From: Psococerastis gibbosa
Taxonomy: Eukaryota > Arthropoda > Insecta > Psocodea > Psocidae
Assembly: GCA_963971405.1 (NCBI GenBank)
Contig: OZ020492.1
Coordinates: forward strand, 18,134,204-18,198,203
Direction: 5' to 3'
Length of the DNA stretch: 64,000 bases
Shown here one piece after another: positions 1 to 43,699 of this stretch. Both the position numbers and the translations under genes were made by a program. Position 1 is the stretch's first letter; each line of letters starts with the position of its first letter. Under the pieces are notes generated by a model, which saw only the letters and a program-made list of their open reading frames with translations, was not told the origin of the DNA and did no database searches.

Positions 1-1206
1 ATGGATAAATGTCACGATGTAAGAATTTGATAAAAAATAGGCATCAGAATTTCCATTGTAAGGATTTAATAATGGAAAAAAAGGAGAAACAAAAAGGGGG
101 AGTTTGAATTGTCGGAATATTTTTACTAATAGGAGCCGGGGTCGAGCCGCATATTAAATTGTAGCTCTTTGAAAAGTTATTAACTGTCGTATTAACTTTC
201 TCCCCTGCCGATACATAAAGGCGTATATTTATTATATCAATCGCAATATATTTACGTATATTTGCAAATTTCATTCATGCGCCATTATAGGTTTGAAATT
301 TAAGAGAGAATTCAATTAAAAAATTTTATTCCATATTTCTTACTCTGGTTTCGGAAAACAATAATTTGACCTCCGGTCACTACTGGGTCACGCCAAATTC
401 AATCAGATTTCAGTTTTTATTTAATTTACAAACAATAATTCAAAAAGATTTGGTCTATCAAAGTTGTAAAAGGCTTCCTTTTTAATTTTCGTTGTTGTAT
501 TTATGACTTTTATGAATGAGTCTTCGTCAATAAAATATGAAGTATTGATGTCAAAATGCTTAAGGCTCATCTATTTTGTACCTGGTTTTTTAAATATTTT
601 CCCACGGGGAAAAAGGTTGAGAACTGCTGCATTAGAGGGCCCAATGGAGCGAATGCACGGCCTTAAATGGGTTAATATTATAGTTGTTGTTTTTTCAAAC
701 GTATATGTTATCTTGAAATAAGTTTCCGCGTTCATCTATAAAGACAAAATGAAGTGTGTATTCTTCCAGCCAAGAAGTGAGGCAGATCCATTAGAAATAT
801 AATGCCGGTAATTAAGTGCATAGATTTTCATGAATATGACGTAACATCACCTTTCACCCTTTTCCAGGAATTTTCAGCAGATTTTTTTTGAAATTTTCAA
901 CTGAATACCGTTTAGAAATATATTTTTCAAGTTCTTCTTTAACTTTTAGCCTCACCTTATATTATAGCCTACATGTTAGCATTTTAACGCGATGCATTTG
1001 CTTTACAAACTGTAACCTCAATGATTTAGCTAAATTTTCTATTGATCGTCCTTTTGAAATTTTCCAATTTACTTCAATCCATTTTAGTCTCACTTAACTC
1101 ATGATATTATTTTTATATAAAGAAAAATTACAAAGGAAACTTAAACTTTTAAAATCACCTCTATATTGCAGTCCTTGCTACTGAATACAAATTTCAATGG
1201 GTATTT
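1..1206. other. AT-rich DNA, nothing recognised
   Basis: No convincing exon, RNA gene or repeat was found on either strand. The short open frames here have low-complexity, AT-driven composition and no family motifs. Confidence 0.6.
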
Positions 1207-1257
1207 TTCTGGTGAAAGTCGCAGTCTGTACCACTACTCTATATGTCCTACAAAAGT
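1207..1257 (-). mobile_element. SINE-A fragment (tRNA-like head only)
   Basis: On the minus strand this reads as the first ~45 bases of the tRNA-derived SINE that is complete at 7062-7285, including the A-box-like stretch. The B box and body are missing. Confidence 0.5.
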
Positions 1258-1370
1258 TCTAAAAGCTAATGTCTACGGTCTTACCTCTTAAACCCCGGAT
1301 TATTTCCATGATTTTGGAATTTTCCTGAAACAAGCAGTGTCACATTAAAAAAAAAATTGAAATAGAAATC

Positions 1371-1534
1371 GGGGGGGGGGGGGAGTGTCCACCTGACGTC
1401 AATGGAGGTGAGGCAAATTCTAGATAGGTCAGACCAACACATTAACACACAGAAATACTGGCAGGGCACGCAATGAAAATCGAAAATTTCGACCGTCACA
1501 AAGCTTTCCTTATACTACGTATAAATTGGAAAGC
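1371..1534 (-). mobile_element. Repeat E, internally deleted copy
   Basis: The copy joins the poly-G/CRE end of repeat E (G-run, then TGACGTCA at 1394-1401 and the conserved GCAGGGCACGCAATG block) directly to its other terminus (ATAAATTGGAAAGC). About 700 bp of the interior seen in full copies such as 8770-9627 is missing. Upstream of the G-run the sequence no longer matches clearly. Confidence 0.75.
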
Positions 1535-1673
1535 AACAAGTACAGAAGACCTTAATCCGACACTGCTTTATCACAGTTTGGCTGACAAAAGTCGTTATTG
1601 GGGTCGTGGTGAAGTGGGGGATGAATCAGCGCTAAGCTCTTTTTACTGGGGTGTTTTCCCAGCATTTCACTAA

Positions 1674-3275
1674 TTTAACCATTCTACATTTCATAAAACA
1701 TTTCTGAAACCTTTACAAATAATTTTTAGTCTTTCACTTAGAACTGGGAAATACCCTACATCCTGGAAAACAGCGGTTGTTACGCCGTTACCTAAAAAGC
1801 CTCAAACGAAACTAATAATAGAACACAGGCCTATCTCCATGTTTTGTTCCTTCAGTAAGTTATTTAAAAACATTCTATATAAAAAGTTCTTTCAACATAT
1901 AAAACCAATTATAAGTGACGCTCAATTTGGTTTTCTACCCAAAAGGTCCACAACATCAAACCTGATAAATTTTTCGGATAAAGTTACCCAAGCTTCTGAA
2001 AATAACCAGCAAATTGACGTCATCTATACTGATTTCAGGAAAGCATTCGACCTGGTTGAGTTCACAGTCTTATTGAGAAAGCTAAGAATGTATGGTTTCT
2101 CTGATAATCTGGTAAAATTTTGCCCTACGTACTTGCTGGATCGACAACAGTTTGTTACGTACAAAGGCTTTGATTCAATGGACTTCTCTGTCAATTCATC
2201 TGTGCCTCAAGGTTCCAATCTAGGACCACTGTTCTTTTTAATAGTTATAACTGACCTACCTGAAATTATCAACCACAGTACCGTTTATCTTTTTGCGGAC
2301 GACCTAAAACTGGGGAAAATTATTGCAAACGAACAAGACTGTAGACTATTACAGACTGATTTAAATGCGCTAGTTCAATGGAGTAATTTAAACAAACTGG
2401 AGTTCAATATTGGAAAATGTAAATGTATGACTTACTCGTTAAAATGATTGGAGACTGTGTTTGACTATTCAATGTCAGGTATCAAATTAAAAAGAGTTGA
2501 GGAATGTGATGACCTTGGTGTTACTTTCGACAAAAAATTATCTTTTGATAGGCACATCCAAAATATTAAAAAGAAAGCTTCTCGTCTATTTGGCTTTATT
2601 AAACGAACCTCGCTACATTTTAGAATGCCAGAAACAATTATAAACCTATTTAATGCTTTCGTAAGAAGTCGTTTAGAATACTGCTGCATCACTTGGAATC
2701 CTTACCATTCGACTAAAATTGCATTACTAGAAAAAGCTCAAATCAAATTAGCAAAATTCTTGGAAAAAAGATTTTTGAATAATGCTACTGTAAATTTTTC
2801 GAATCTTAATCCAGATTTTTATATATCCTTATTGAAAAAATTTAATTTACTATCACTCGAGAAGAGAAGGAAATATTGCTATATTTCATACCTTTGGAAA
2901 GTTTTAAATTTCAAAGAAGATAATAATTACTTTTTGGAGAAAAATAGTTTTAATACTAGAATTAGAGTAAACCGCTCAACTGCCACTTTTGTTATTTCAG
3001 GTGGTAGAGTAAATATTTCGACTATTAACAGGGTGTGCAGAGAAGCCAATAGCTGCCCAAGCATTGACTTCTTTGCACACTCTGAAATACATGTAAGGAA
3101 AGAATTTTTTGATTAATGTTTTTCTCTGTACCTACAATTCTGATCAAGTAATCACTGTATCTACGAGATAATCAATTCACACTTTTATTTTGCACTTTGT
3201 AATTGGGGGCAACCCTGTCTTTGTACAATATATATATTTCTATTTCTATTTCTATTTCTATCTCTCTTTCCCGTG
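1674..3275 (+). pseudogene. Non-LTR retrotransposon (LINE), 5'-truncated reverse transcriptase
   Basis: The frame is open from 1674 to 3116 except for one in-frame TGA at 2445-2447. Reverse transcriptase motifs appear in order: TPLPKKP and EHRPISM (fingers), FGFLPKRST, the motif A region IYTDFRKAFD, SSVPQGSNLGPLFFL (motif B) and LFADDLKLG (catalytic FADD). After the TGA come the thumb and C-terminal region typical of Jockey/CR1-type LINEs (LGVTFDKKLSFDRHI; SRLEYCCITWNPY). The endonuclease and ORF1 are absent, which is usual 5' truncation. A short 3' UTR ends in a (TTTCTA)n tail at about 3236-3265. The clade assignment is uncertain; the LINE identity is not. With a single stop in ~480 codons this is a fairly young dead copy. 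It begins shortly after the E fragment that ends at 1534. Confidence 0.88.
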
Positions 3276-4023
3276 GTTTCTTCCTCCCGACACTGTATCA
3301 GATGTTTGTTCTATTTTGACCCACAACTACCCCCCCTCCAAATTTAAAGTAAAATAATAAATAATAATAATAATAATAATAATAAATCAACAGAAGATGG
3401 ATCCGTTGGAGTTATTGAAAGAAGTCCAGTGAAATAAAAGAAGTGAAATGATCATTAGAATAAATAAATGAATGAATGAAAAACGTCTCTAGACTACTCT
3501 GCCAGCTAACCAGTCACACTGCACCCACTTTATAATTTCCATTGTTAGCCCCCCCTCCCCTCCAGCCCACCTCAACCAAAAGAAAATCGTAGATTTGCTT
3601 ACTCGGCATCTCGTATGATTTCATCTCTACAACATTGGAGAATGCATGTCTCTTATAAGTAAACCCAGTACGAGTGGAAACTTTGTCACTTCATAGAGAA
3701 GGTCAATGGATATTTTTCAAAATCAATAAAATGCTTTGAAGTGACAATGAAATTAGAGGACGACAGGGAGGGTTCCAATATGCGTTGATTTGCTTATAGT
3801 AAGATGGTTACAATTCTTTTTATCCGTCAGCAAGCCTTTTCAGCAGGATACTAAAAGCTTTTACTACAAAATAGATTTTTTTTTTGTATTCCGGATGGAT
3901 TACTTTAAAGCGCTATAGGCAGATAGAAATCCTTAGGCCTACTGCTGCGAACAAAGTACCCTATAATGTAATCTATATTCAGTAATATCACATCAATATC
4001 TCTTTAGCATTTACCGTACTATG
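3276..4023. other. Unannotated AT-rich DNA with an AAT microsatellite
   Basis: An (AAT)n run lies near 3352-3385 and (TGAA)n-like sequence near 3462-3480. Nothing else was recognised. Confidence 0.5.
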
Positions 4024-4031
4024 ATTATAGG

Positions 4032-4668
4032 CAATGGCGTAAATTCCCAAAATTTCTGGGGGGGGGGGGAACCTTAGGACCCCAAGACTTTAAATCATTA
4101 CTCATTCACTTCTGAAGTCTGCCTAGCAAATTATATGACTTATTTATTATTTAATTTTTTTTTAATGTGTATGAAATATTATTATACAGTATATAATATT
4201 ATTATACAGTAACTTTTGTTTTCAGAATTTCAAGAATTTAAAAAAAAAACGTTTTTTTTTATCACCGGCAATGCTGACACGCTCAGCGACCTAGTGGTCT
4301 CATTCTCTATATGCTTGACGGCCAAATTGCTGAACTTGTCCTGACTGGTGGTACCAGGCGCGGAGAAAGGGGGGCCCAAATTAGTGAGGTTTTACGCATA
4401 TCATACCCCGGGGAGGGGGGGGGGGTTCTCCCCCGGCGAAAAAAATTGATGAATGATGATTTGAGTAATATATTTTTTGTGAATGTACTTGGTCAATATG
4501 CTGATTTTTCTTTCATGATGTCTTTTATGTAAAATAAGCATACCAAGAATTAATTTCCCTTTCGTTATTTTGGATACTATGGCTTTCACCTCCATAACGT
4601 CTTTGTCATTAGCAATCCCGGGGGGCTAGCCCCCCCCCCCCCCCAGGACCCCACTATTTACGCCAATG
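4032..4668. mobile_element. hAT-type non-autonomous element, family H1
   Basis: The termini are inverted: CAATGGCGTAAA at the left and TTTACGCCAATG at the right. They are flanked by 8-bp direct repeats ATTATAGG (4024-4031) and ATTCTAGG (4669-4676), one mismatch, the target duplication size of hAT transposons. The interior is AT-rich with several G- or C-runs and shares long stretches, in opposite orientation, with the element at 40208-41158. No transposase is visible. Confidence 0.82.
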
Positions 4669-4676
4669 ATTCTAGG

Positions 4677-5356
4677 TTTATTATTTTTATTATTTATTTA
4701 TTTGTAGCTCGTTTCTAGGTTACTGGCGCTGGTGATTTCGTTTGGTTGCTCCTTGGAAACCCTTGGCTCAGGTCCCTCTTCCTAAAATTTTTGACCTAGC
4801 ACTACACAGAAAGATATTTTTTGACATAAAAGAAAGATGCATCTAGATTTATGAGGTAACTTCACACTTGCCCCCCCCCCCCAAAAAAAAAATCGTAGAA
4901 CCGCTAATGGATATTACACGCAACAGTTACGGCTCATCGACTATTTTTATCATGAAAAATCCCTTAGGCACATCTTGCACTTCTTCATGGAAGGTAAACA
5001 TGTGAACTGTGCAACAATTCGCAGCCAACTATTAATTAATATTAGTATGAGTGGTCAATCGTTTGATTATTATTATATTCTACACAACTTACTGAAGGCT
5101 ATAAGACTCAGGAAATGACTGGCGGATTTTTCGTAAAATGTAAAGTTGGGAAAGAAAAAATTTAATCAATTGAAGATCTGGAACGAAATCATATAGATGG
5201 GTAGAAAATCCGTGTATTTATCAAAAAATATGGAAAACATAAAAATACAAAGCTGAAGACGAAGTGGGAGGGAGTGGCACATCAATTAACCTATTCAAAC
5301 TACTTTAAAAAAATTCACAATGTATACAGGCATATGTAAAAATAAGCAGACTACAA
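4677..5356. other. Unannotated AT-rich DNA
   Basis: No coding or repeat signature was recognised beyond homopolymer C and A runs near 4871-4892. Confidence 0.5.
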
Positions 5357-5558
5357 ATAATAAATAAATAAATATTGACATTTTTGTTCTATTACTCAGC
5401 CAACCTAGCGGAGCTAGGGCTCTAAAGCCCTATCTTACACTCAACTAGGAAAGTCCGGGACCACCTGCTTTACGTACCCTCCGAAGCATGGCCAGAAAAT
5501 GTGGCAAGTGTGGGACTTTCGGGTGAAAGTTGGAGTCTGTACCACTACTCTACACGTC
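5357..5558 (-). mobile_element. SINE-A copy, tRNA-derived, B box damaged
   Basis: On the minus strand it carries the tRNA-like head, the GGCCATGCTTCGGAGGG body and the 3' part ending in a TTTATTTATTTA-like tail (5357-5374 on the plus strand). A short deletion removed most of the B box that is intact in the 7062-7285 copy. Confidence 0.8.
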
Positions 5559-6408
5559 AATGTGGAACTGTGGTCTGGTACAAGTTACAGGTTTCTTTTG
5601 TCGTAAAAAAGAAAAATATACATAATATAATAATAAATCAATAGAAAATTGATCCGATTGAAAGAAGTCCAGGAGTGAAATGATCGTTGCTCAGACATCA
5701 TCGTGTTTCAAGTTTCAATCTTCAAAAGTGAAAGAACTTATTATTTATTACATTATTAGATTATCTCATGACAAAACCAAGATCTTAGATATTTCATTTC
5801 TGGCATTGTTTGTTTGATTGAAGAGGATTTGGAATTCTTAAGTAGGCTTGGTAAACCTCTCAAGGTGGAAGGTACATTTACTTTTGCCTTTGTGAGTTCC
5901 GTTACAATTTCTTAATTATCGTGGCTGTAAAATAGTTAACCAATTATTCATGTCGAGGCTCAGCTTAGCGCTAATTTAATTATAATTTTATCCCTTTAAC
6001 CTTGTATAATTGACAATTATTGTTTATGCTACTATATTGTTCTATTTACATTTTCTAATACATTCTAATTCTAATACATGTTTATTTTAAAATTCAGGTA
6101 TTTTAATATTCCGGCATCGAGTATATTACTATAGAAATCGTCTGGTGCTTATCTCAATATTATTAAAACTAATACTTACATTGTCATACCGATTACTAAT
6201 TTATTCCTAAAATAAGCCCGCAAGAACAGAAAGACTTCCAAAATCTTGTTAACCCGGCTACTACGAAGTTTGTAGTTCAAGTAGCAATGCACGCTCTCAA
6301 TCGATGCTGGGGGGGGGGGGAGGGGGGGGGGGGTACAGTCATGAGAAAATATTAATAAGTTCCAAAAGATACCCTTTACTTTTTACATTCCTCATAGACT
6401 GTCTTCTT
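5559..6408. other. Unannotated AT-rich DNA
   Basis: No gene or repeat could be supported. A long interrupted G-run lies at about 6309-6332. Confidence 0.5.
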
Positions 6409-17450: not shown

Positions 17451-17744
17451 TGACTCGTTCCCGTATTATACAGTTTAGCTAATACGTGTGTTAAGTCTCA
17501 GCTTGCCCATTGACACTTGTAGTCGGTGTGGGCTCACAAGTCATATCGAGGAGTGAGCCAGTTGGCCTCGAGCTCGAGATAGAAATTCATTGGGAAGTAA
17601 TACCCATATTGTCCGAACCCCGAAAAGGTCGTTAAAAGAAAATATAAGAGTCGTAGAAAACGCTACAGTAAATGCGCAAAACACAAGTGTACTCCAAGTT
17701 CATGAGTAGTATAGAAAGGGGGTTTCTGGCACAAATCCCAGCTA

Positions 17745-18034
17745 TCCCATCTATCCCACCCCGTCGTGCTACCCCCCGCGGGTGGTCTATCTATTTTTGT
17801 GTGTTATCCCTCGTGGGTGGTCTGAGGTTCTGGCACAAATCCCACCCCCCCCCCCCCGTCGAGCTACCCCATCTACCCCACCCCCCCCCGTCATGCTACC
17901 CCTCGTGGGTGGTCTGAGGTTCTGGCGCTTATCCCCCCCCGTCGAGACCCGTGGGTGGTCTTTCTATGGCACCATGATCGTTTGATCGTTTTTTTTTTTT
18001 TTTTATAATTACTAATTTGTGAGATAGAGTTATA

Positions 18035-18068
<34 letters not shown>

Positions 18069-18285
18069 TTTTTATGGTGTTAATTGAATTAAAACGGGAC
18101 TTACCCCACCCCCCGTCGAGCTATCCCATCTACCCATCATGCTACCCCTCGTGGGTGGTCTGAGGTGCTGGGACTTATCCCACCCCCCCCGTCGAGCTAT
18201 CCCATCTACCCCTCGTGGGTGGTCTGAGGTGCTGGGACTTACCCCACCCCCGTCGAGACCCGTGGGTGGTCTTTCTATGGCACTA
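17745..18285. repeat. GC-rich minisatellite, left arm
   Basis: Repeats of ~60-90 bp built on GTGGGTGGTCTGAGGT, a tggcacaaatccca or gggacttatccca variant, C-runs and GTCGAGCTA. They fall in two blocks separated by a poly-T/TA stretch (17988-18075). Mirrored at about 29920-30450. Confidence 0.8.
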
Positions 18286-18310
18286 TGATTGTTTTTTTTT
18301 ATAACCCAGG

Positions 18311-19034
18311 TAAACATAAGCTAAATATAGACACCCATAGTATTTAAAGACCGTAAAATAAATTAATATAAGTTTTTTTCTTAATTATTTATTATCAGAT
18401 AAATTTACATCGGTGAACACGATTGTGCTAATTAATAATGTTAAGTACACTACATTAAGTAAACATAAGCTAAATATAGACACCCATAGTATTTGAAGAC
18501 CGTTAAATAAATTAATATAAGTTTTTTTCTTATTAATTTTTATCAGCAATATTTACATCGATGAACACGCTTGAGCTAATGCATAATGTTTAGTACACTA
18601 CATTGAGTAAACATAAGCTAAATATAGACACCAATAGTATTTAAAGACCGTAAAATAAATTAATATAAGTTTTTTCTTAATTATTTATTATCAGCTAAAT
18701 TTACATCGATGACCACGCTTGAGCTAATGCATAATGTTAAGTACACTACATTGAGTAAAGATAAGCTAAATATAGACACCCATAGTATTTAAAAACCTTA
18801 AAATAAGTTAATATAAGTTTTTTTCTTATTATTTTTTTTTTTTTTTATCAGCTACATTTACATCGATGAACACGCTTGAGCTAATGCATAATGTTTAGTA
18901 CACTACATTGAGTAAAGATAAGCTAAATATAGAAACCCATAGTATTTAAAAACCTTAAAATAAATTAATATAAGTTTTTTCTTATTAATTTTTTATCAGC
19001 TACATTTACATCGACGAACACGCTTGAGCTAATG
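18311..19034 (+). repeat. Five ~149-bp tandem units, left arm
   Basis: Units start near 18311, 18460, 18608, 18757 and 18913 with TAAACATAAGCTAAATATAG (or TAAAGATAAGC). Each contains AGTATTTAAA..CC, a TTTTTTCTTA stretch and TTTACATCGATGAACACG. Spacing is 148-156 bp. Their position just inside the outer minisatellite fits subterminal repeats of the element. Confidence 0.88.
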
Positions 19035-19154
19035 GGAGACAGGGATAGATAGACCAGTGAGGGTGAGCGCCATTGAATAATGCACATATTAATTACCTAA
19101 TTTGAAACAGTGGACTACCCACGAATGATAGACGGTAAGGGTGGGACTCGGTGT

Positions 19155-19620
19155 TGCACTCAGTATCTTAAAAGAAATGTATTAATCCCACAATAGGTGC
19201 TCAATATACCCACCAGCCATGTTTATAAAAATGAATTTTCAATAATCCCAACTAAGTCTCAGTTTCTCACAATGGGTGTGCAATATACCAGGCAGTCGTG
19301 TTTTCTATGTTAGATTTAGTTACATTGGGCTAGGACAGGTTAAGTTATAATATTAGGCTAGGTTAAATTTTTATATCAAGTTAGGGTAGGTTACATTGGA
19401 TTAGGATAGGCCAGATTAGGTTACATTGGGTTAGGTTAGCTGTTTACCTAGATTAAATTCATCATTTTTTTTAACAAAAATATTTTTATATCAAATAAAT
19501 ATGATGTTAAGTTAGGTTACATTGAATTAGGATAGGTTAGATTAGGTTACATTGGGTAAGGATAGGTTGAGTTAGCCACAAACAAGCTATTAATAAATCT
19601 ACCCCTCGCTGACAGTCCAT
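19155..19620 (+). repeat. TTAGG-like block, outer copy, left arm
   Basis: A unique lead-in (AAAGAAATGTATTAATCCCA..., GGCAGTCGTGTTTTC) is followed by imperfect repeats of TTAGGTTACATTGGATTAGG and AGGATAGGTTAG. The motif resembles the insect telomeric repeat TTAGG but is degenerate and interstitial. The same block recurs in direct orientation at 23577-23875 and inverted at 24076-24625 and 28600-29050. Confidence 0.8.
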
Positions 19621-20539
19621 TGTAAGCTAAAGTGATTTTTGTTTTCGTAAATCTATCCAACACTTAGGTTGAAGCATGGTCATTATCGCATTATAGATAT
19701 GTCTTAGGTTTAAAAGTTTGTTTTAAGTGATTGTATGTAAAGACATTGTTTATGAGGGAAGATTTTACTGATCATAATAATAATTGCACAATTATGAGCG
19801 GAGGAGCACTATCTAACGAGGGGAACTTTGTATGCAAACATCTATAGCTCTAGATGGTGTTGTAAAATAATACAATTATAAAAACATAACCATACGTCAT
19901 GATCCCGTTGTATATTTACATAATATGGAAGGTGAGGTTGATTCAATTACAACTGAAAACATAAAACTTTTTAAAGTGATTAAATGGTATAAAGGACAAG
20001 TCCCGTGCTGGGCAATTAATAAATCTATCCAACGCACAGGTTTAAGGGAAGTATTGATTTAGTAAACAGATAACCGTGTGCAGATTCAAACCTGTTGAGA
20101 ATCACCAGGTGCACTCAGTACACCCATCACACCAGGGGGTCCATTGTAAGCTAAGTGAATTTTGTTTTTACATCAGTTGCACCCGGCAATGATAAAAACT
20201 ATACTGAAGCATGGTTTCTTGCTAAAAACGAACAACTTCTCCTCACTGATGACTCCACAATAAAATATCAACAAATAAACAAACAACATTTACAATATTA
20301 AAAATGGTAGGGGGGGGGGCCTTTAAAAGCAAAAGTGAACATTACAATTGCAAATACAAGTAAAGAAAAAATGTACGAATTAAGTAAAAAAATTTTTTTT
20401 TAAACGTTAATAGAAAAACAATTGTGCAGGCAGATAACTGAAGTAATGTAGGCTAATAATAAAATATTGGTTGACAATCGACACTGAGAGAACATCCACT
20501 TTACAGTATGTATCCCAATTTTCATTAAGTCTAGTTGCT

Positions 20540-21750
20540 AAGTAGGGACGTGATGTTATTGGGGTTGGAAGAAATTAGGTATTTTATGTGTCTTGAAACT
20601 TGTTATGCTGACGGAGTCCTTTATGTTGTCCGGTAGGGAATTGTACAATGGAATAGACTTATACATAATATGCGAATGCATAAAGTGTTCCGTATTCGGT
20701 TTCAAAGTTTTTAGGTTGCGTCCGGTACCAAGTCTGGTATTAATGTTATGATGGACGAAATCACCTTGCCCAAGAATGGTTTTTGCCCTTTTTAAATCGA
20801 AAAAGTAGAAGTTGTTTTGCACATAGCAATGGCAATGGGAGGGCATTGAATTCCTGAAAAAGAAGATTTGAAGGGTAGCGGCGAGGCTTCCCTATAGCTA
20901 CCCTGATGGCTATTCTTACATCAGTTTCTAGGGAGCATATATGGGAAGAGTGAGCACCACCCCAGGCTAATATACTATATTGGAAAATTGATTGGACTAA
21001 AGCATGATAAACTTACCTTACAGAGTGTCAACGTTAAGTGTACACCTTAGCATCCTTAATTTGTTATAGGTTCTTCTAATTCGTTTTGATGTTAGGAGGA
21101 TTTGTTCATACCACTTGAGATGATTATCAATGGTAACGCCTAAATATTTAATAGTATTTGCTTTTGCGATTATCTGACATGTGCATGGATTAAGGTTGCA
21201 ATTATTATGGAGTATTAAACTGAGATAGAATAGAATAGAAGAATAGAATAATGTATTTCGTTCCTTCAATAATACATATACATGCACACCAATATAATGA
21301 GGTAGGGGTGGCCCAAAGGATTTCTCCCGTGCTGGGGACCCCTTAATACTATAATAACTAAGCTAAAACTTTATCGATAATAATTAATTTTATATAGACT
21401 CTAAGTAACATCACTAAGTAAGGAAATAAGTAAGATCATATACTAAGATGGTTTATCACTCTGTTGAATCCGGGGTTGTTATGCTAACGCACTATTGCTG
21501 GAAGATTTCTTAGTTGATTTTGGGACAGATGAAAGCTAATTTTACTAATGAATTTTTTTTTTTTTGATGTAGATTTTTTTTTTATGAACTCAGGAAGGCT
21601 GTTATATAATGGAACTGATAGGTAAATGTGAGAATGTGTGAAAAGGGTAGTGTTATGATTGGGGATCTGAAGATTGCGACCAACACCAAGTCCAGTATAG
21701 CTAAAACTATGGAAGAATATATAGCCTTCAGTATTGGAGAGTTATGCTTT
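20540..21750 (-). pseudogene. LINE fragments inserted in the left arm
   Basis: The minus strand reads IKYLGVTIDNHLKWYEQIL and NKLRMLR (thumb region), then near 20556-20846 SIPLYNSLPDNIKDSVSITS before the stop, the C-terminal end of a Jockey/CR1-type LINE. A second, related 3' fragment (VPLYNSLPEFIK) lies at about 21560-21740, so two LINE pieces are stacked. Identical copies occur inverted in the right arm, so these insertions predate the inverted duplication. Confidence 0.75.
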
Positions 21751-21768
21751 TAAGACACTTACCAATTT

Positions 21769-23160
21769 ATGGCCTCCTCATTAGATTCAGTAGTTAAAAA
21801 TCTTGTTGATGCGGATAAAAATAAATTTAAAATTATGAAAACATGTTTTGTGGATGAAAAATTAGACTTGATGTTGAGGAAGGGTGTCTTCCCCTATGAA
21901 TATATAACGCACGAGTCACAATTTAATGAGGAACACTTACCTACAATCATTGCATTTTTAGTCAATTAACTCAAGAGTGGATTTCACAAGAAAAATATGA
22001 ACATGCTCAAAAGGTGTGGAATGCTTTTGATATAAAGAATTTAGAAGAATACCAAGACTTGAATGTATTAAACAACACCCTTCTCTTTTGCGATGTTTTT
22101 GAAGCCTTTAGAGCCTAATGTTTTGAAAACGATAACCTCGAAATTTGTCACATGTACACTGCACCAGGGCTAGCTCTTCAGAGCTGTCTGAAAATATTAG
22201 TGGGTTTCGCTGGATGGAGGAGGAAGAAATCAAAAAATTTTAATGTAATGCTCGCACCTAATGAGGACGATGGTGGGTTCATATTACATGTGGACTTGGA
22301 ATATCCACAAAAATTACATGATTTACATAATGAATACCCACTAGCAGCTGAACATTGTGTTGTAACTTCAGACATGATTTCTCCATATTGCAAGGAATTT
22401 CTCGCTGAAAATAATATATCTTTAACATCCACCATCTCAATGCTTATTCCCAACTTAAACGATAAACACAACTATATAATACATTATCGAAATTTGAAGC
22501 AATGTTTAGAATTGGCATTAAAATTAAAAATGTATACATAAAATTTTAGCTTTTAAGCAAAGCGCTTGGATGCGACCCTTTATCGATTTTAATTAGCTTG
22601 TAATGATTTCGAGAACAAAAGTATGGTGATAAATGATGAAATTCGCATACCAATCCATCAACAAGATATACTTATTACTCTACCATGTGAAAGCCGACTG
22701 CATATTGAAGGTGTGTTGGAAAAAGGTGTGACAACAATTGCTTATCAAGGTGAAGACTGGCTTAGCGCTAATGCTATGGCACACTTATTCTCCGAAATAT
22801 GCTATGAACTCAATGGAGTAACTGTTGATCATGTGCGAAACCCTGTGCGAATGATTTCTTCAAGTGAAAAACCACGGTTTGCTATTATTGGCTTCCAAGC
22901 AGCACGAGCAGATGATATTTGAAAGACGCTACTGCCTTCGATCAATGTGCTGTACGACAAATGCAACTATTCCTCGGCTCAGAATGCTATCCATACCATC
23001 CGCTACAGGCGAACTTCAACAAAAAGGTTGTTGCTGTATTGTATGAACATTTTCTCAATTTCCGGAAACAATACTACATGCAGGATGAAGCATCCCCGAA
23101 CGTTTCCCGGGTCATTATCGCATTATAGATATGTCTTAGGTTTAAAAGTTTGTTTTAAGT
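21769..23160 (+). pseudogene. Polinton gene remnants, left arm (polymerase B, capsid)
   Basis: Fossil coding remnants. The part at about 21.77-22.54 kb resembles protein-primed DNA polymerase B of Polintons and relatives (HDLHNEYPLA, ISPYCKEFL, IIHYRNL). The part at about 22.62-23.13 kb resembles the double-jelly-roll major capsid protein (CYELNGVTVDHVRN). They are heavily decayed, with several breaks, and are separated by far less DNA than in an intact element, so a large deletion is likely. The family call is from remembered motifs. Confidence 0.7.
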
Positions 23161-23576
23161 GATTGTATGTAAAGACATTGATTTCTTTTAAAATATGTGT
23201 ATTATAAAATTTGTATATCATAAAATGGTTTACATTCGTTTAGCTCATGGTCATTATTGTATTATAGATAAGTCTTAGGCTTAAAAGCTTGTTTTAAGTG
23301 ATTGTATGAAAAGACATTGATTTCTTTTAAAATATGTGTATTATAAAATTTGTATATCATAAAATGGTTTACATTCATTTACAATAGTTGATGTACAATA
23401 CCAGTTAAAGGTACATATTCATATAAGCAGTCGCTGATGAGTAGACAGTCCCTTTATTTGCCATGCAGACAACCCTTTATATATTGGAGTGCATAAGGTC
23501 GGTGGCCATTTCAGTCCCCTCGCATTAAGATTATGACACATCGCTATTAATTCAGGTACGCCGATATAATAAGTGC

Positions 23577-23875
23577 ACTCAGCATCTTAAAAGAAATGTA
23601 TTAATCCCACAATAGGTGTTCAATATACCCACCAGCCGTGTTTATAAAAATGAATTTTCAATAATCCCAACTAAGTCTCAGTTTCTCACAATAGGTGTGC
23701 AATATACCAGGCAGTCGTGTTTTCTATGTTAGATTTAGTTACATTGGGCTAGGACAGGTTAAGTTATAATATTAGGCTAGGTTAAATTTTTATATCAAGT
23801 TAGGGTAGGTTACATTGGATTAGGATAGGCCAGATTAGGTTACATTGGGTTAGGTTAGCTGTTTACCTAGATTAA
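23577..23875 (+). repeat. TTAGG-like block, inner copy, left arm
   Basis: A direct repeat of 19155-19455, nearly identical over ~290 bp, running into the N gap. It makes each arm a module bracketed by the same sequence. Confidence 0.85.
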
Positions 23876-24075
23876 NNNNNNNNNNNNNNNNNNNNNNNNN
23901 NNNNNNNNNNNNNNNNNNNNNNNNNNNNNNNNNNNNNNNNNNNNNNNNNNNNNNNNNNNNNNNNNNNNNNNNNNNNNNNNNNNNNNNNNNNNNNNNNNNN
24001 NNNNNNNNNNNNNNNNNNNNNNNNNNNNNNNNNNNNNNNNNNNNNNNNNNNNNNNNNNNNNNNNNNNNNNNNNNN
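23876..24075. other. Assembly gap of exactly 200 N
   Basis: The round size suggests an arbitrary placeholder. It lies close to the palindrome axis (about 24103) and inside TTAGG-like repeats, so the true centre length is unknown. Confidence 0.95.
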
Positions 24076-24625
24076 AAGTTAGCGGCTAACTTAACCTATC
24101 CTAATTCAATGTAACCTAACTTAACATCATATTTATTTGATATAAAAATATTTTTGTTAAAAAAAATGATGAATTTAATCTAGGTAAACAGCTAACCTAA
24201 CCCAATGTAACGTAATCTGGCCTATCCTAATCCAATGTAACCTAATCTAACCTATCCTAATTCAATGTAACCTAACTTAACATCATATTTATTTGATATA
24301 AAAATATTTTTGTTAAAAAAATGATGAATTTAATCTAGGTAAACAGCTAACCTAACCCAATGTAACCTAATCTGGCCTATCCTAATCCAATGTAACCTAC
24401 CCTAACTTGATATAAAAATTTAACCTAGCCTAATATTATAACTTAACCTGTCCTAGCCCAATGTAACTAAATCTAACATAGAAAACACGACTGCCTGGTA
24501 TATTGCACACCTATTGTGAGAAACTGAGACTTAGTTGGGATTATTGAAAATTCATTTTTATAAACACGGCTGGTGGGTATATTGAACACCTATTGTGGGA
24601 TTAATACATTTCTTTTAAGATGCTG
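24076..24625 (-). repeat. TTAGG-like block, central and right-arm inner copy
   Basis: It contains two tandem ~200-bp units of CCTAACTTAACATCATATTT...ATGATGAATTTAATCTAGG followed by the mirror of 23577-23875. The first 255 bp have no partner in the visible left arm because the gap begins there. Confidence 0.8.
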
Positions 24626-25043
24626 AGTGCACTTATTATATCGGCGTACCTGAATTAATAGCGATGTGTCATAATCTTAATGCGAGGGGGACTGAAATGG
24701 CCACCGACCTTATGCACTCCAATATATAAAGGGTTGTCTGCATGGCAAATAAAGGGACTGTCTACTCATCAGCGACTGCTTATATGAATATGTACCTTTA
24801 ACTGGTATTGTACATCAACTATTGTAAATGAATGTAAACCATTTTATGATATACAAATTTTATAATACACATATTTTAAAAGAAATCAATGTCTTTTCAT
24901 ACAATCACTTAAAACAAGCTTTTAAGCCTAAGACTTATCTATAATACAATAATGACCATGAGCTAAACGAATGTAAACCATTTTATGATATACAAATTTT
25001 ATAATACACATATTTTAAAAGAAATCAATGTCTTTACATACAA

Positions 25044-26437
25044 TCACTTAAAACAAACTTTTAAACCTAAGACATATCTATAATGCGATAATGACCCGGG
25101 AAACGTTCGGGGATGCTTCATCCTGCATGTAGTATTGTTTCCGGAAATTGAGAAAATGTTCATACAATACAGCAACAACCTTTTTGTTGAAGTTCGCCTG
25201 TAGCGGATGGTATGGATAGCATTCTGAGCCGAGGAATAGTTGCATTTGTCGTACAGCACATTGATCGAAGGCAGTAGCGTCTTTCAAATATCATCTGCTC
25301 GTGCTGCTTGGAAGCCAATAATAGCAAACCGTGGTTTTTCACTTGAAGAAATCATTCGCACAGGGTTTCGCACATGATCAACAGTTACTCCATTGAGTTC
25401 ATAGCATATTTCGGAGAATAAGTGTGCCATAGCATTAGCGCTAAGCCAGTCTTCACCTTGATAAGCAATTGTTGTCACACCTTTTTCCAACACACCTTCA
25501 ATATGCAGTCGGCTTTCACATGGTAGAGTAATAAGTATATCTTGTTGATGGATTGGTATGCGAATTTCATCATTTATCACCATACTTTTGTTCTCGAAAT
25601 CATTACAAGCTAATTAAAATCGATAAAGGGTCGCATCCAAGCGCTTTGCTTAAAAGCTAAAATTTTATGTATACATTTTTAATTTTAATGCCAATTCTAA
25701 ACATTGCTTCAAATTTCGATAATGTATTATATAGTTGTGTTTATCGTTTAAGTTGGGAATAAGCATTGAGATGGTGGATGTTAAAGATATATTATTTTCA
25801 GCGAGAAATTCCTTGCAATATGGAGAAATCATGTCTGAAGTTACAACACAATGTTCAGCTGCTAGTGGGTATTCATTATGTAAATCATGTAATTTTTGTG
25901 GATATTCCAAGTCCACATGTAATATGAACCCACCATCGTCCTCATTAGGTGCGAGCATTACATTAAAATTTTTTGATTTCTTCCTCCTCCATCCAGCGAA
26001 ACCCACTAATATTTTCAGACAGCTCTGAAGAGCTAGCCCTGGTGCAGTGTACATGTGACAAATTTCGAGGTTATCGTTTTCAAAACATTAGGCTCTAAAG
26101 GCTTCAAAAACATCGCAAAAGAGAAGGGTGTTGTTTAATACATTCAAGTCTTGGTATTCTTCTAAATTCTTTATATCAAAAGCATTCCACACCTTTTGAG
26201 CATGTTCATATTTTTCTTGTGAAATCCACTCTTGAGTTAATTGACTTAAAATGCAATGATTGTAGGTAAGTGTTCCTCATTAAATTGTGACTCGTGCGTT
26301 ATATATTCATAGGGGAAGACACCCTTCCTCAACATCAAGTCTAATTTTTCATCCACAAAACATGTTTTCATAATTTTAAATTTATTTTTATCCGCATCAA
26401 CAAGATTTTTAACTACTGAATCTAATGAGGAGGCCAT
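25044..26437 (-). pseudogene. Polinton gene remnants, right arm
   Basis: The mirror image of 21769-23160, virtually identical and carrying the same decayed polymerase B and capsid pieces. Shared decay shows that the duplication happened after the genes had died. Confidence 0.7.
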
Positions 26438-26459
26438 AAATTGGTAAGTGTCTTAAAAG

Positions 26460-27670
26460 CATAACTCTCCAATACTGAAGGCTATATATTCTTCCATAGT
26501 TTTAGCTATACTGGACTTGGTGTTGGTCGCAATCTTCAGATCCCCAATCATAACACTACCCTTTTCACACATTCTCACATTTACCTATCAGTTCCATTAT
26601 ATAACAGCCTTCCTGAGTTCATAAAAAAAAAATCTACATCAAAAAAAAAAAATTCATTAGTAAAATTAGCTTTCATCTGTCCCAAAATCAACTAAGAAAT
26701 CTTCCAGCAATAGTGCGTTAGCATAACAACCCCGGATTCAACAGAGTGATAAACCATCTTAGTATATGATCTTACTTATTTCCTTACTTAGTGATGTTAC
26801 TTAGAGTCTATATAAAATTAATTATTATCGATAAAGTTTTAGCTTAGTTATTATAGTATTAAGGGGTCCCCAGCACGGGAGAAATCCTTTGGGCCACCCC
26901 TACCTCATTATATTGGTGTGCATGTATATGTATTATTGAAGGAACGAAATACATTATTCTATTCTTCTATTCTATTCTATCTCAGTTTAATACTCCATAA
27001 TAATTGCAACCTTAATCCATGCACATGTCAGATAATCGCAAAAGCAAATACTATTAAATATTTAGGCGTTACCATTGATAATCATCTCAAGTGGTATGAA
27101 CAAATCCTCCTAACATCAAAACGAATTAGAAGAACCTATAACAAATTAAGGATGCTAAGGTGTACACTTAACGTTGACACTCTGTAAGGTAAGTTTATCA
27201 TGCTTTAGTCCAATCAATTTTCCAATATAGTATATTAGCCTGGGGTGGTGCTCACTCTTCCCATATATGCTCCCTAGAAACTGATGTAAGAATAGCCATC
27301 AGGGTAGCTATAGGGAAGCCTCGCCGCTACCTTTCAAATCTTCTTTTTCAGGAATTCAATGCCCTCCCATTGCCATTGCTATGTGCAAAACAACTTCTAC
27401 TTTTTCGATTTAAAAAGGGCAAAAACCATTCTTGGGCAAGGTGATTTCGTCCATCATAACATTAATACCAGACTTGGTACCGGACGCAACCTAAAAACTT
27501 TGAAACCGAATACGGAACACTTTATGCATTCGCATATTATGTATAAGTCTATTCCATTGTACAATTCCCTACCGGACAACATAAAGGACTCCGTCAGCAT
27601 AACAAGTTTCAAGACACATAAAATACCTAATTTCTTCCAACCCCAATAACATCACGTCCCTACTTAGCAA
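26460..27670 (+). pseudogene. LINE fragments, right arm
   Basis: The mirror of 20540-21750, with the same LINE thumb and C-terminal motifs now on the plus strand. At least two single-base differences from the left arm are visible in this arm (for example near 27331 versus 20873). Confidence 0.75.
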
Positions 27671-28599
27671 CTAGACTTAATGAAAATTGGGATACATACT
27701 GTAAAGTGGATGTTCTCTCAGTGTCGATTGTCAACCAATATTTTATTATTAGCCTACATTACTTCAGTTATCTGCCTGCACAATTGTTTTTCTATTAACG
27801 TTTAAAAAAAAAATTTTTTACTTAATTCGTACATTTTTTCTTTACTTGTATTTGCAATTGTAATGTTCACTTTTGCTTTTAAAGGCCCCCCCCCCTACCA
27901 TTTTTAATATTGTAAATGTTGTTTGTTTATTTGTTGATATTTTATTGTGGAGTCATCAGTGAGGAGAAGTTGTTCGTTTTTAGCAAGAAACCATGCTTCA
28001 GTATAGTTTTTATCATTGCCGGGTGCAACTGATGTAAAAACAAAATTCACTTAGCTTACAATGGACCCCCTGGTGTGATGGGTGTACTGAGTGCACCTGG
28101 TGATTCTCAACAGGTTTGAATCTGCACACGGTTATCTGTTTACTAAATCAATACTTCCCTTAAACCTGTGCGTTGGATAGATTTATTAATTGCCCAGCAC
28201 GGGACTTGTCCTTTATACCATTTAATCACTTTTAAAAGTTTTATGTTTTCAGTTGTAATTGAATCAACCTCACCTTCCATATTATGTAAATATACAACGG
28301 GATCATGACGTATGGTTATGTTTTTATAATTGTATTATTTTACAACACCATCTAGAGCTATAGATGTTTGCATACAAAGTTCCCCTCGTTAGATAGTGCT
28401 CCTCCGCTCATAATTGTGCAATTATTATTATGATCAGTAAAATCTTCCCTCATAAACAATGTCTTTACATACAATCACTTAAAACAAACTTTTAAACCTA
28501 AGACATATCTATAATGCGATAATGACCATGCTTCAACCTAAGTGTTGGATAGATTTACGAAAACAAAAATCACTTTAGCTTACAATGGACTGTCAGCGA

Positions 28600-29050
28600 G
28601 GGGTAGATTTATTAATAGCTTGTTTGTGGCTAACTCAACCTATCCTTACCCAATGTAACCTAATCTAACCTATCCTAATTCAATGTAACCTAACTTAACA
28701 TCATATTTATTTGATATAAAAATATTTTTGTTAAAAAAAATGATGAATTTAATCTAGGTAAACAGCTAACCTAACCCAATGTAACCTAATCTGGCCTATC
28801 CTAATCCAATGTAACCTACCCTAACTTGATATAAAAATTTAACCTAGCCTAATATTATAACTTAACCTGTCCTAGCCCAATGTAACTAAATCTAACATAG
28901 AAAACACGACTGCCTGGTATATTGCACACCCATTGTGAGAAACTGAGACTTAGTTGGGATTATTGAAAATTCATTTTTATAAACATGGCTGGTGGGTATA
29001 TTGAGCACCTATTGTGGGATTAATACATTTCTTTTAAGATACTGAGTGCA
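28600..29050 (-). repeat. TTAGG-like block, right-arm outer copy
   Basis: The mirror of 19155-19620: AACCTAATCTAACC-type repeats, then the CTGCCTGGTATATTGCACACC lead-in read in reverse. Confidence 0.8.
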
Positions 29051-29170
29051 ACACCGAGTCCCACCCTTACCGTCTATCATTCGTGGGTAGTCCACTGTTT
29101 CAAATTAGGTAATTAATATGTGCATTATTCAATGGCGCTCACCCTCACTGGTCTATCTATCCCTGTCTCC

Positions 29171-29896
29171 CATTAGCTCAAGCGTGTTCGTCGATGTAAA
29201 TGTAGCTGATAAAAAATTAATAAGAAAAAACTTATATTAATTTATTTTAAGGTTTTTAAATACTATGGGTTTCTATATTTAGCTTATCTTTACTCAATGT
29301 AGTGTACTAAACATTATGCATTAGCTCAAGCGTGTTCATCGATGTAAATGTAGCTGATAAAAAAAAAAAAATAATAATAAGAAAAAAACTTATATTAACT
29401 TATTTTAAGGTTTTTAAATACTATGGGTGTCTATATTTAGCTTATCTTTACTCAATGTAGTGTACTTAACATTATGCATTAGCTCAAGCGTGGTCATCGA
29501 TGTAAATTTAGCTGATAATAAATAATTAAGAAAAAACTTATATTAATTTATTTTACGGTCTTTAAATACTATTGGTGTCTATATTTAGCTTATGTTTACT
29601 CAATGTAGTGTACTAAACATTATGCATTAGCTCAAGCGTGTTCATCGATGTAAATATTGCTGATAAAAATTAATAAGAAAAAAACTTATATTAATTTATT
29701 TAACGGTCTTCAAATACTATGGGTGTCTATATTTAGCTTATGTTTACTTAATGTAGTGTACTTAACATTATTAATTAGCACAATCGTGTTCACCGATGTA
29801 AATTTATCTGATAATAAATAATTAAGAAAAAAACTTATATTAATTTATTTTACGGTCTTTAAATACTATGGGTGTCTATATTTAGCTTATGTTTAC
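29171..29896 (-). repeat. Five ~149-bp tandem units, right arm
   Basis: Mirror of 18311-19034 with the same unit order. Confidence 0.88.
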
Positions 29897-29919
29897 CTGG
29901 GTTATAAAAAAAAACAATC

Positions 29920-30131
29920 ATAGTGCCATAGAAAGACCACCCACGGGTCTCGACGGGGGTGGGGTAAGTCCCAGCACCTCAGACCACCCACGAGGGGTAG
30001 ATGGGATAGCTCGACGGGGGGGGTGGGATAAGTCCCAGCACCTCAGACCACCCACGAGGGGTAGCATGATGGGTAGATGGGATAGCTCGACGGGGGGTGG
30101 GGTAAGTCCCGTTTTAATTCAATTAACACCA

Positions 30132-30173
<42 letters not shown>

Positions 30174-30470
30174 CTCTATCTCACAAATTAGTAATTATAA
30201 AAAAAAAAAAACGATCAAACGATCATGGTGCCATAGAAAGACCACCCACGGGTCTCGACGGGGGGGGATAAGCGCCAGAACCTCAGACCACCCACGAGGG
30301 GTAGCATGACGGGGGGGGTGGGGTAGATGGGGTAGCTCGACGGGGGGGGGGTGGGATTTGTGCCAGAACCTCAGACCACCCACGAGGGATAACACACAAA
30401 AATAGATAGACCACCCGCGGGGGGTAGCACGACGGGGTGGGATAGATGGGATAGCTGGGATTTGTGCCAG
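29920..30470. repeat. GC-rich minisatellite, right arm
   Basis: Mirror of 17745-18285: CCTCAGACCACCCACGAG units with G-runs and a TA/A-rich separator. Confidence 0.8.
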
Positions 30471-30699
30471 AAACCCCCTTTCTATACTACTTTCATGCTA
30501 TCAATTTTTTTTTTTATTATCATTATTTTTTTTAATTTTATCAATAAAACTCTCATTTAGTCTATAGCTGTTTCATGACACTTAAAAAACTATTACTTTT
30601 TAAAATTTATGTGCGAAACAGGCTTAGCTCTGAAGTAATACGAGTCTCTAAATATCATGCGATCGGTGACCTGTCGTAACTCAACACAGGTATTACCTA

Positions 30700-30883: not shown

Positions 30884-32467
30884 ATTAAACAAAGCTCTAA
30901 TACGATACCCCAAGATATAGACTATAAATTTACCAACATGAACCCCGTAGCTCCTTCATTTTTTGGTCTGGTTAAACTTCATAAACCCAATCAACCTATC
31001 CGCCCAGTAGTTTCGTATAACAGTGCCCCAGCCAGCAAAGTAGCTAGTTTTTTCAACAAACACATTCGCGAGCTATCAAACTTCACACCCCGCCACAGCG
31101 TCAAAAACTCATTCGAGTTGGTTTCCCGCCTTAAGCACCTTTCCTTATCCAGCAATGCCAAACTCGTCTCTTTCGATGTCAAAAATCTGTTTACTAATAT
31201 TCCCGTACCCGAAGTACGTAAATTAGTTGCCCAGTCACTCTATCACAATAACACCTCGAACAGCCTTATTTCTGAGACCCTCCTTCTGTTAGACACATGC
31301 ACTCATCAAAACTATTTCCGTTTCGTATCCGACTACTACCAACAAAAAATAGGCCTACCTATGGGTTCTTCCCTTTCTCCCCTTCTTGCTGAAATTTTTA
31401 TGGATAACTTCGAACACAAACTTCTGCTCAATAAAAATCCCCTAGTTAAATGTATATCTTTCTGGACAAGGTATGTGGATGATATCTTCTGCATTTGGAC
31501 AGGAAGTAACAGACAACTAGACAATTTCTTAAGTTTTATCAACACAATTCACCCAAAAATCCAATTTACCATGGAAGTAGAAGAAAACAACTCCCTGAAC
31601 TTCTTAGACCTCACCATCACCAAAAATAATAGTACCCTAGACTTCAAGATATTTCGTAAAGAAACCCATAGCGATAATATAATCCCTGTTGATTCTTCTC
31701 ACCCATTCCAGCACAAACACGCAGCATTCCATAGTATGATTTTTCGACTCCTTAACATCCCTATGAATCAAACCAACTATAATAATGAATTAAATACAAT
31801 AAAACAAATTGCCCAAAATAACAATTTCAATCTCAACCTAATAGACAGAATCCTACGACATCACAAAATCAAACACAACCTCAAACTAATTTACCCCCCA
31901 GGGAGCTTAAACCCGGTAACCAATAAATCATATTTCAGGATACAATACATAGAAAAAATCACAGAAAAAATTAGTAACCTCATTTCTTCTACAACAGACA
32001 AAACACCAGCCCCGTACAATCGCAACAATTTGGCCAATAAACTCATGAACTGCAAAACCAAACCAGAAAAAGAAAAAGGCAATGGAGTTTATCGTCTAAA
32101 TTGTAACGATTGTAACGCAATTTACATAGGCCAAACAGGCAGAAGCTTTAAAACTAGGGTCCGAGAACATATAACAGGTATAGGAGACACCAACACCAAC
32201 AGCACATTCGCGAAACACCTTAACTCGGAAAATCACACATTCGATCCTCACAATTGGACAGCCCTACACAAAATAAAGAAAAGTTACACTATACATTTTT
32301 TTCAAAATGTTGAAATCAAAAGAGCTTTACACAATAGGGAAAAATTAACAAACGACATAACATTCACACAATCATCCCCTCTAATAGATCTAGCTAGTAG
32401 GTTAGGAATAGGTAACCAGCCACGCCCCCTCCCACCCCCTCCTCCCCCCGCTCCCAATCCTATATAA
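30884..32467 (+). CDS. Penelope-like element protein: reverse transcriptase + GIY-YIG endonuclease
   Basis: The frame is open from 30884; the first ATG at 30938 gives 509 residues. It is the replication protein of a Penelope-like retroelement, which copies element RNA and nicks the target. Reverse transcriptase core: FFGLVKLHKP at residues 8-17, motif A SFDVKNLFTNIP with Asp80, motif B GLPMGSSLSP at 139-148, and catalytic YVDD at 179-182. The C-terminal GIY-YIG endonuclease has GVY (383-385), YIG (396-398) and the RVREH stretch (408-411), with a Cys pair C389/C392 and His427/His433 as in family members with a zinc-finger-like insertion. The tail is proline-rich (497-505). Family proteins are usually 700-850 residues, so the N-terminal part is missing; the frame upstream is closed by a TAG at 30881. 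No stop or frameshift lies in the remaining frame, which suggests a young copy. It sits ~400 bp outside the palindrome. Confidence 0.93.
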   Translation: MKQSSNTIPQDIDYKFTNMNPVAPSFFGLVKLHKPNQPIRPVVSYNSAPASKVASFFNKHIRELSNFTPRHSVKNSFELVSRLKHLSLSSNAKLVSFDVKNLFTNIPVPEVRKLVAQSLYHNNTSNSLISETLLLLDTCTHQNYFRFVSDYYQQKIGLPMGSSLSPLLAEIFMDNFEHKLLLNKNPLVKCISFWTRYVDDIFCIWTGSNRQLDNFLSFINTIHPKIQFTMEVEENNSLNFLDLTITKNNSTLDFKIFRKETHSDNIIPVDSSHPFQHKHAAFHSMIFRLLNIPMNQTNYNNELNTIKQIAQNNNFNLNLIDRILRHHKIKHNLKLIYPPGSLNPVTNKSYFRIQYIEKITEKISNLISSTTDKTPAPYNRNNLANKLMNCKTKPEKEKGNGVYRLNCNDCNAIYIGQTGRSFKTRVREHITGIGDTNTNSTFAKHLNSENHTFDPHNWTALHKIKKSYTIHFFQNVEIKRALHNREKLTNDITFTQSSPLIDLASRLGIGNQPRPLPPPPPPAPNPI

Positions 32468-43010: not shown

Positions 43011-43699
43011 ATCACATCAAAAATGGTGTGGCACTGCACCAACCTCCTAATAAAGGTGTGTCGGGAAAACTCAGTCTCGCTGATTTGGGTCCCGGCGCAC
43101 TCGAACTTTGATGGGAATGAAAGAGCCGACGAGCTGGCTCGAAAAGGTGCAGAAACGCCATTCATTGGTGCAGAACCTAAGTACGGGATGGCTTATTGCC
43201 AGGCCCGTACTTCTGTACAAAAATGGGTGCAGAGAAAAACTGCAGAGGAATGGAAGAAAGTCCCGGAAAGCAGATTTGCTAAGAAGGTTATTCCGGGTCC
43301 TAGTAAGAAGCTCACCGATCAGCTTCTCTCTTTAAGTAGAGAGCAAGCTAGAAGGGTGGTTGGCACGCTTACGGGCCACGGCCACTTCAACAAACACATG
43401 CATAGAGTTGGCGTGAAAAACGACAGTAGATGCAGACTGTGTGAAGTTGAAGAAGAAACAGCTGAACACATTCTCTTTGAATGTGAAGCGCTGGGACAAA
43501 CTCGATACCAAACTCTTGGCCACCCTAGGTCTGAAGAGGAAACCATCCGATCTAATCCCATCACAAAAACACTAGAATTTATCAAAAAGACTGGTGTTAT
43601 AAGATGGGCGTAGACGGCAAACGTGGAAGCAAAAGACCTTCTAGGTCGACGCTTATAGGAACTCAAACGAGTAGGCCCCACGAAGGAAAAAAAAAAAAA
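43011..43699 (+). pseudogene. Young 5'-truncated LINE: RNase H + zinc-knuckle region, poly(A)
   Basis: A 196-codon open frame (43023-43613) contains VSLIWVPAHSNFDGNERADE, the end of a LINE RNase H domain including the final catalytic-site region. After ~75 residues comes a Cys-Cys-His-Cys cluster (RCRLCEVEEETAEHILFEC). The 3' UTR ends in a run of about 15-16 A at 43687-43702. Direct repeats AAAGTCAGACAAG at 42998-43010 and about 43700-43712 bracket the insertion, so only the last ~690 bp were ever inserted here. There are no stops in the remaining frame. The clade is probably RNase H-bearing (I, R1 or LOA-like). Confidence 0.9.

Follow-up and report, generated by a model that had tools for sequence, protein, structure and literature searches.

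A family of palindromic Polinton derivatives in the genome of Psococerastis gibbosa

A palindrome with Polinton ends

We analyzed a stretch of 64,000 nucleotides from the insect Psococerastis gibbosa (assembly GCA_963971405.1, contig OZ020492.1, positions 18,134,204 to 18,198,203; hereafter the window), which harbors a palindromic element with the ends of a Polinton. The element occupies 17705-30491 (12,787 bp), and its termini read AGTAGT...ACTACT (in full, AGTAGTATAG...CTATACTACT). Identical copies of the 6-bp target duplication TTCATG flank it at 17699-17704 on the left and 30492-30497 on the right. The palindrome comprises a left arm at 17705-23875 (plus strand, terminus AGTAGTATAG), which reaches as far as a gap of 200 N (23876-24075), and a right arm at 24076-30491 (minus strand, terminus CTATACTACT). 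Alignment of 17706-23875 with 24076-30491 gave 99.7% identity over 6172 columns, with 5 mismatches and 7 runs of indels, most of them at homopolymers. The inverted repeat is exact over several kb, and a chance origin was therefore set aside.

The original prediction had described a 12.8-kb palindrome with AG...CT ends and TTCATG on both sides, with PolB and capsid remnants inside, and had read it as a single integration of Polinton origin that exceeds ordinary long terminal inverted repeats (TIRs). The coordinates above agree with this description, the PolB and capsid remnants are present, the equal outer 6-mers and Polinton ends support one integration of Polinton origin, and arms alignable over such a length go beyond ordinary TIRs. 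The arms had also been taken to run to the centre, with the gap overlooked. This centre is a dyad, AAGTTAGC-G-GCTAACTT, at 24076-24092. The right contig, whose first base (24076) lies 8 bp to the left of the dyad centre (24084), therefore crosses that centre. The left contig ends ~245 bp before the centre, as judged by mirror position, and the gap would conceal ~240 bp of repeats if the element is symmetric.

Both arms contain 148-bp tandem repeats (18310-19034, plus strand; mirror copy 29171-29896) and a TTAGG-like repeat, block A (19155-19566, plus strand; mirror copy 28639-29050). Block A resembles degenerate copies of TTAGG, the telomere repeat of insects. It is present within the arm and again at the centre, where its copies stand head to head with the gap between them (23574-24631). 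The plus strand of the left arm also contains gene remnants: one from the 5' portion of PolB (19723-20305), one from PolB with a broken frame (21695-22615) and one from the double-jelly-roll capsid gene (22652-23109), which is inverted compared with the intact Polinton. At 23449-23450 (plus strand; mirror ~24756), a palindrome-specific junction, corresponding to position 6301 of the intact Polinton described below, leads via a linker into block A. Inside the mirrored arms, the minus strand of 20407-21741 contains frames that resemble non-LTR reverse transcriptase by eye only; three minus-strand pieces from this interval gave no Pfam match at E 1.

An intact-looking Polinton and two types of arm

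The search space was the 409-Mb genome in 68 contigs, referred to here as C1, C2 and so on. An intact-looking, gap-free Polinton with the same ends as the palindromes was found at C2:15635981-15650563 (14,583 bp; hereafter the parent). It is flanked by GATAGG on both sides, and its TIRs of ~1.55 kb are 97.3% identical. The open frames of the parent comprise a putative 1329-aa PolB, a capsid protein (PF21738, 305 bits) and rve (41.7 bits, over the cut-off), together with a Pox_A32-type ATPase (over the cut-off), a Peptidase_C5-like frame (below the cut-off) and a PLA2-like frame. The 1329-aa frame gave no PF03175 match at E 0.01; it aligns at 37% identity with two PF03175-positive loci, and from this identity and motifs recognized by eye we assign it as a probable PolB. 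A 104-aa frame lies inside the parent TIR and hence occurs twice (L030 655-966; L031 6375-6686).

In a genome search with PF21738, 126 matches were scored out of 486 candidates. Almost all of them have an open frame of 409 aa; two have an internal stop and one lies in a 367-aa frame. PF03175 gave 6 matches, with 91 of 205 candidates scored. About 40 open capsid frames are tied at 311 bits for PF21738, separate from a 305.4-bit class, and the ties at 311 and 305.4 suggest recent spread.

Each palindrome consists of two left Polinton halves (TIR and PolB region) placed head to head via a short dyad in TTAGG-like repeats, and the arms are of two types. The young type was read in two gap-free objects, C1:156488-170857 and C2:26388616-26402681. 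The arms of the former match parent positions 54-6301 at 98.5%; those of the latter match positions 1930-6301 at 99.9%, with 92.6% for the TIR part. A linker of ~120 bp, the TTAGG-like block A and the dyad follow. Identity between the two halves is 99.67% over 5393 columns in the former object and 99.89% over 5376 columns in the latter, and each of the four young arms read has an uninterrupted PolB frame of 1329 codons. The young palindromes are the parent's left half, with its TIR and open PolB, in mirrored form.

The arm of the window type is a mosaic. It combines parent PolB-region pieces (88.8-94.8% identity) with a capsid piece in flipped orientation (92.8-94.1%), and its inner part, as far as the centre, shares 99.7% identity with the young type. 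PolB in the window is present as fragments only, with the frame broken, and window-type copies are an older variant with a broken PolB. Since the two arm types have the inner arm and the centre in common, the centre appears to have been combined with different arms, on both sides. Comparison of the window arm with the parent's right half yielded a DNA match in the TIR only; integrase, ATPase and protease are absent from the palindrome arms in this comparison. Of the autonomous Polinton gene set, the window element has no whole PolB, no integrase/ATPase/protease set and no capsid gene. Its ends and sequence are common to the palindromes and to an intact Polinton of the same genome, which makes it a non-autonomous Polinton derivative. 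The "whole" Polinton-derived element of the original prediction was thus an overstatement: the arms derive chiefly from a Polinton's left half, to which a capsid piece is added in flipped orientation.

Insertions across the genome

The terminus AGTAGTATAGAAAGGGGG had 261 and 257 matches on the two strands (≤2 mismatches; control, 11 and 10). An exact search, allowing S at the penultimate base, retrieved 311 ends together with their 6-base flanks (83, 81, 57 and 90). Plus/minus end pairs lying ≤60 kb apart with an equal 6-bp flank numbered 91, whereas 200 shuffles yielded 0.37 on average and never more than 3. With the 126 scored capsid matches used for classification, at least 59 of these pairs contain a capsid match (58 once, one twice), at least 19 contain the palindrome centre or the window-type arm marker, and 13 contain none of these among the matches listed, the window and C20:20.67M being among these 13. 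Adjacent plus/minus ends at 3-25 kb formed 109 pairs, 87 with equal and 22 with unequal 6-mers. The unequal pairs comprise 5 with a capsid match (one also with the window-type marker), 13 with a palindrome marker and no capsid, and 4 with neither.

The 35-bp version of the dyad occurs at 77 places (≤3 mismatches; control, 0), the palindrome-specific linker junction at 123 + 116 = 239 places (≤2 mismatches; control, 0), and the window-type arm marker at 98 + 90 places (control, 0). The element in the window, previously treated as a lone oddity, is therefore one copy of a large palindromic family. Because counts of centres, junctions and markers include chimeric contigs, the figure of ~100 palindromes is an order of magnitude and no census. 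On contigs C1, C2, C3 and C12, for which the junction list is complete for exact matches, 24 of the 42 equal-flank pairs contain a capsid match, and the junction is present in none of those 24; the junction without a scored capsid match occurs in 17, and 1 pair lacks both. In 8 of the 17 junction-bearing pairs, the junction lies 5.8-6.4 kb from both ends. Four equal-flank pairs (C2:35218626, C3:18938864, C3:23731496 and C3:49280064) have the 6-mer TACAAT/ATTGTA in common, hinting at a target preference.

We read 19 palindromic end pairs, 12 with equal and 7 with unequal 6-bp flanks. The equal-flank insertions, read in part or whole, are the window, C1:18.56M, C1:46.2M, C13:7.2M, C20:2.3M, C3:20.78M, C20:20.67-20.69M, C20:9.06-9.11M, C1:0.156-0.179M, C2:47.19-47.23M, C14:43.04M and C12:29.96M. 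The left arm of C1:18.56M is assembled only to arm position 1329, and the right arms of C1:0.156-0.179M and C2:47.19-47.23M were read in pieces only. In the seven insertions tested, the two arms are near-identical, with 4/4200, 1/4216, 1/2122, 9/3060, 3/4216, 1/2080 and 1/3080 differences (0.02-0.29%), and the divergence between copies has a median of 0.71% and a minimum of 0.085% (159 comparisons). Among 19 arms compared, the nearest relative was the arm's own partner for 14 of 14. The arms of C12:29.96M showed 0 mismatches and 3 gaps over 6021 columns, and those of C14:43.04M 6 mismatches and 8 gaps over 6436 columns (98.6%). That partner arms are most alike implies that they were alike at insertion or were kept alike afterwards. 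Contigs cross the dyad in four equal-flank insertions (C3:20.78M, C14:43.04M, C12:29.96M and C1:46.2M), and in C3:20.78M and C1:46.2M the gap hides nothing because two contigs overlap in arm coordinates. Given these dyad-crossing contigs, a hidden unique middle is unlikely; in the other insertions, a gap past the dyad could hide sequence.

The gap-free palindromic objects read are C1:26.2M, C20:9064214-9078205, C20:9100664-9111948 (arms unequal in length), C13:44.3M (shortened), C2:26.39M, C1:156488-170857 and C2:47187702-47201275. The two arms of C1:26.2M (19/4214 differences) are not each other's nearest relatives, and in C2:47.19M an arm of the window type is fused to one of the young type. 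We read the gap-free objects with unequal flanks as contigs misjoined at the common self-complementary centre. Four of the seven sit inside an outer pair with equal 6-mers, and for two the outer partner was predicted past the next gap and then found, at C1:178799 (ATTCCG) and C2:47227342 (TGTATC). No equal-flank partner lies ≤60 kb away among exact ends for C1:26.2M, C13:44.3M and C2:26.39M; ectopic exchange in the animal is a possible source of such unequal-flank objects. A foldback or missed-adapter read artefact was ruled out, because the mirroring does not extend into the flanks. At C1:41.0M, the right end leads directly into a gap, and contigs start or stop exactly at the AG or CT terminus beside a 200-N gap at C20:20679676 and C1:41022532; such stops may mark free linear ends or a branch in the assembly graph where arms were collapsed.

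Elsewhere in the window, a frame of 509 aa lies open immediately right of the palindrome (30938-32467), and the order of its reverse transcriptase and GIY-YIG domains is Penelope-like. A reverse-transcriptase frame (1839-2447) and a second frame matching RNase H and zf-RVT (43023-43613) are retroelement remnants.

Origin and spread of the palindromes

Vertebrate Mavericks have (AGT)2//(ACT)2 ends and 6-bp duplications, and their intact copies have TIRs of 46-1,447 bp (PMC8097293). The AGTAGT...ACTACT ends, the 6-bp duplications and the PolB and capsid genes of the parent conform to this pattern, whereas the palindrome arms run 6.2-6.4 kb to the centre and lack integrase, ATPase and protease. 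Polintons are also described as self-replicating with a protein-primed PolB (PMC6431247). We propose that the window element is probably a copy of a non-autonomous palindromic Polinton family that arose by fold-back and takes its integrase from intact copies. A putative protein-primed Polinton PolB would work from both ends of the linear genome. A displaced or broken strand could then fold back at an inverted sequence such as block A to give a hairpin, and copying around this hairpin would produce an inverted dimer in which replication could start from either end. These dimers would replicate, possibly via a single-stranded snap-back form with mutual correction of its arms, and would be inserted by the integrase of intact Polintons; since the palindrome arms have no integrase, it would have to come from those copies. 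A further extension, which we hold only tentatively and regard as doubtful, is that the palindromes resemble defective-interfering satellites of an active Polinton. In this view, a hairpin replicon of half genome length, equipped with its own PolB, would be copied into an inverted dimer, one arm would rewrite both in each cycle, and integrase would be borrowed for entry into the chromosome.

Several observations weigh against the fold-back proposal. A 200-N gap is present in 12 of 12 equal-flank insertions, and 7 of 7 gap-free objects have unequal flanks, so no single contig spans flank, arm, centre, arm and flank with an equal duplication; unequal flanks are likewise present at C2:39.3M and C13:1.81M, the interiors of which were read in part. 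The young arms come from gap-free objects read as chimeric, and the two arms of one young object may therefore derive from different insertions. Five between-copy comparisons, at 0.085-0.163% (C20:9M, C1:26.2M and C1:18.56M arms), fall within the range seen inside insertions, contig collapse could make arms look too alike, and the fold-back step is itself inferred from assembled sequence. The pattern of gaps and flanks, together with the gap-free object that fuses the two arm types, would also fit an assembly artefact in which ordinary Polintons acquired mirrored arms by wrong extension via their TIRs or the self-complementary block A. We consider this improbable: the equal flanks lie outside the mirrored arms, the partner arm is the nearest relative in the seven insertions tested, and arms differ by substitutions in the counted pairs. 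In addition, an intact Polinton of similar length was assembled gap-free (one capsid-bearing pair read), the true partner end was found where predicted for two gap-free objects, and misjoins would themselves require self-complementary centres. The palindrome in the window is very probably real.

Gene conversion in chromosomal palindromes is known, and arm-to-arm conversion or TIR extension after insertion would explain why arms within an insertion are more alike than they are to other arms. However, an identical centre and half-element breakpoint recur at many loci, from which it follows that the palindrome formed before it spread; independent conversion at each locus is ruled out by the centre common to 77 places. 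Conversion is accordingly rejected as the origin of the palindromes, and this reading is very improbable as a whole, although conversion may still add to arm identity. Of the two origins offered by the original prediction, the insertion of an inverted dimer is therefore favored over conversion after insertion. A single formation in the chromosome, by end-to-end fusion or fold-back repair, followed by movement as long-TIR cargo of a Polinton integrase and with no role for protein-primed replication, would account for the single centre common to the copies. Like the fold-back proposed above, it also has a parallel in yeast, where fold-back at inverted repeats in single-stranded DNA yields inverted dimers, likewise head-to-head duplications centred on inverted repeats, although of chromosome arms and not of a mobile element (PMC10164571). 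We judge this route unlikely: the inner arm and centre common to two arm types (99.7%) would arise more easily via a half-length hairpin replicon, a point that is not decisive.

The closest precedent known to us for the proposed fold-back family is provided by symmetric (palindromic) defective adenovirus genomes such as SYREC, in which one end of a protein-primed linear genome is duplicated in inverted form and a helper is needed; the present palindromes, by contrast, form a family that resides in the chromosomes and is flanked by target duplications. Long-TIR transposons of the Foldback/Galileo type are also mostly inverted repeat with a short unique centre, but they have their own transposase type, ends and duplication length, whereas the palindromes have 6-bp duplications and Polinton ends. 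A palindromic Polinton was absent from the listed titles and abstract openings of literature on Polinton variants, giant palindromes and adenovirus precedents, a coverage that left out most subscription papers and preprints and gives weak evidence of absence.

To our knowledge, Polinton replication has been inferred and hardly seen. A palindromic family and an intact-looking parent in one genome would constitute a record of inserted replication products, by which protein-primed replication, fold-back and helper-dependent mobilization of Polintons become testable by sequencing. The family also reveals where many giant palindromes come from, structures that disrupt assemblies and may break chromosomes.

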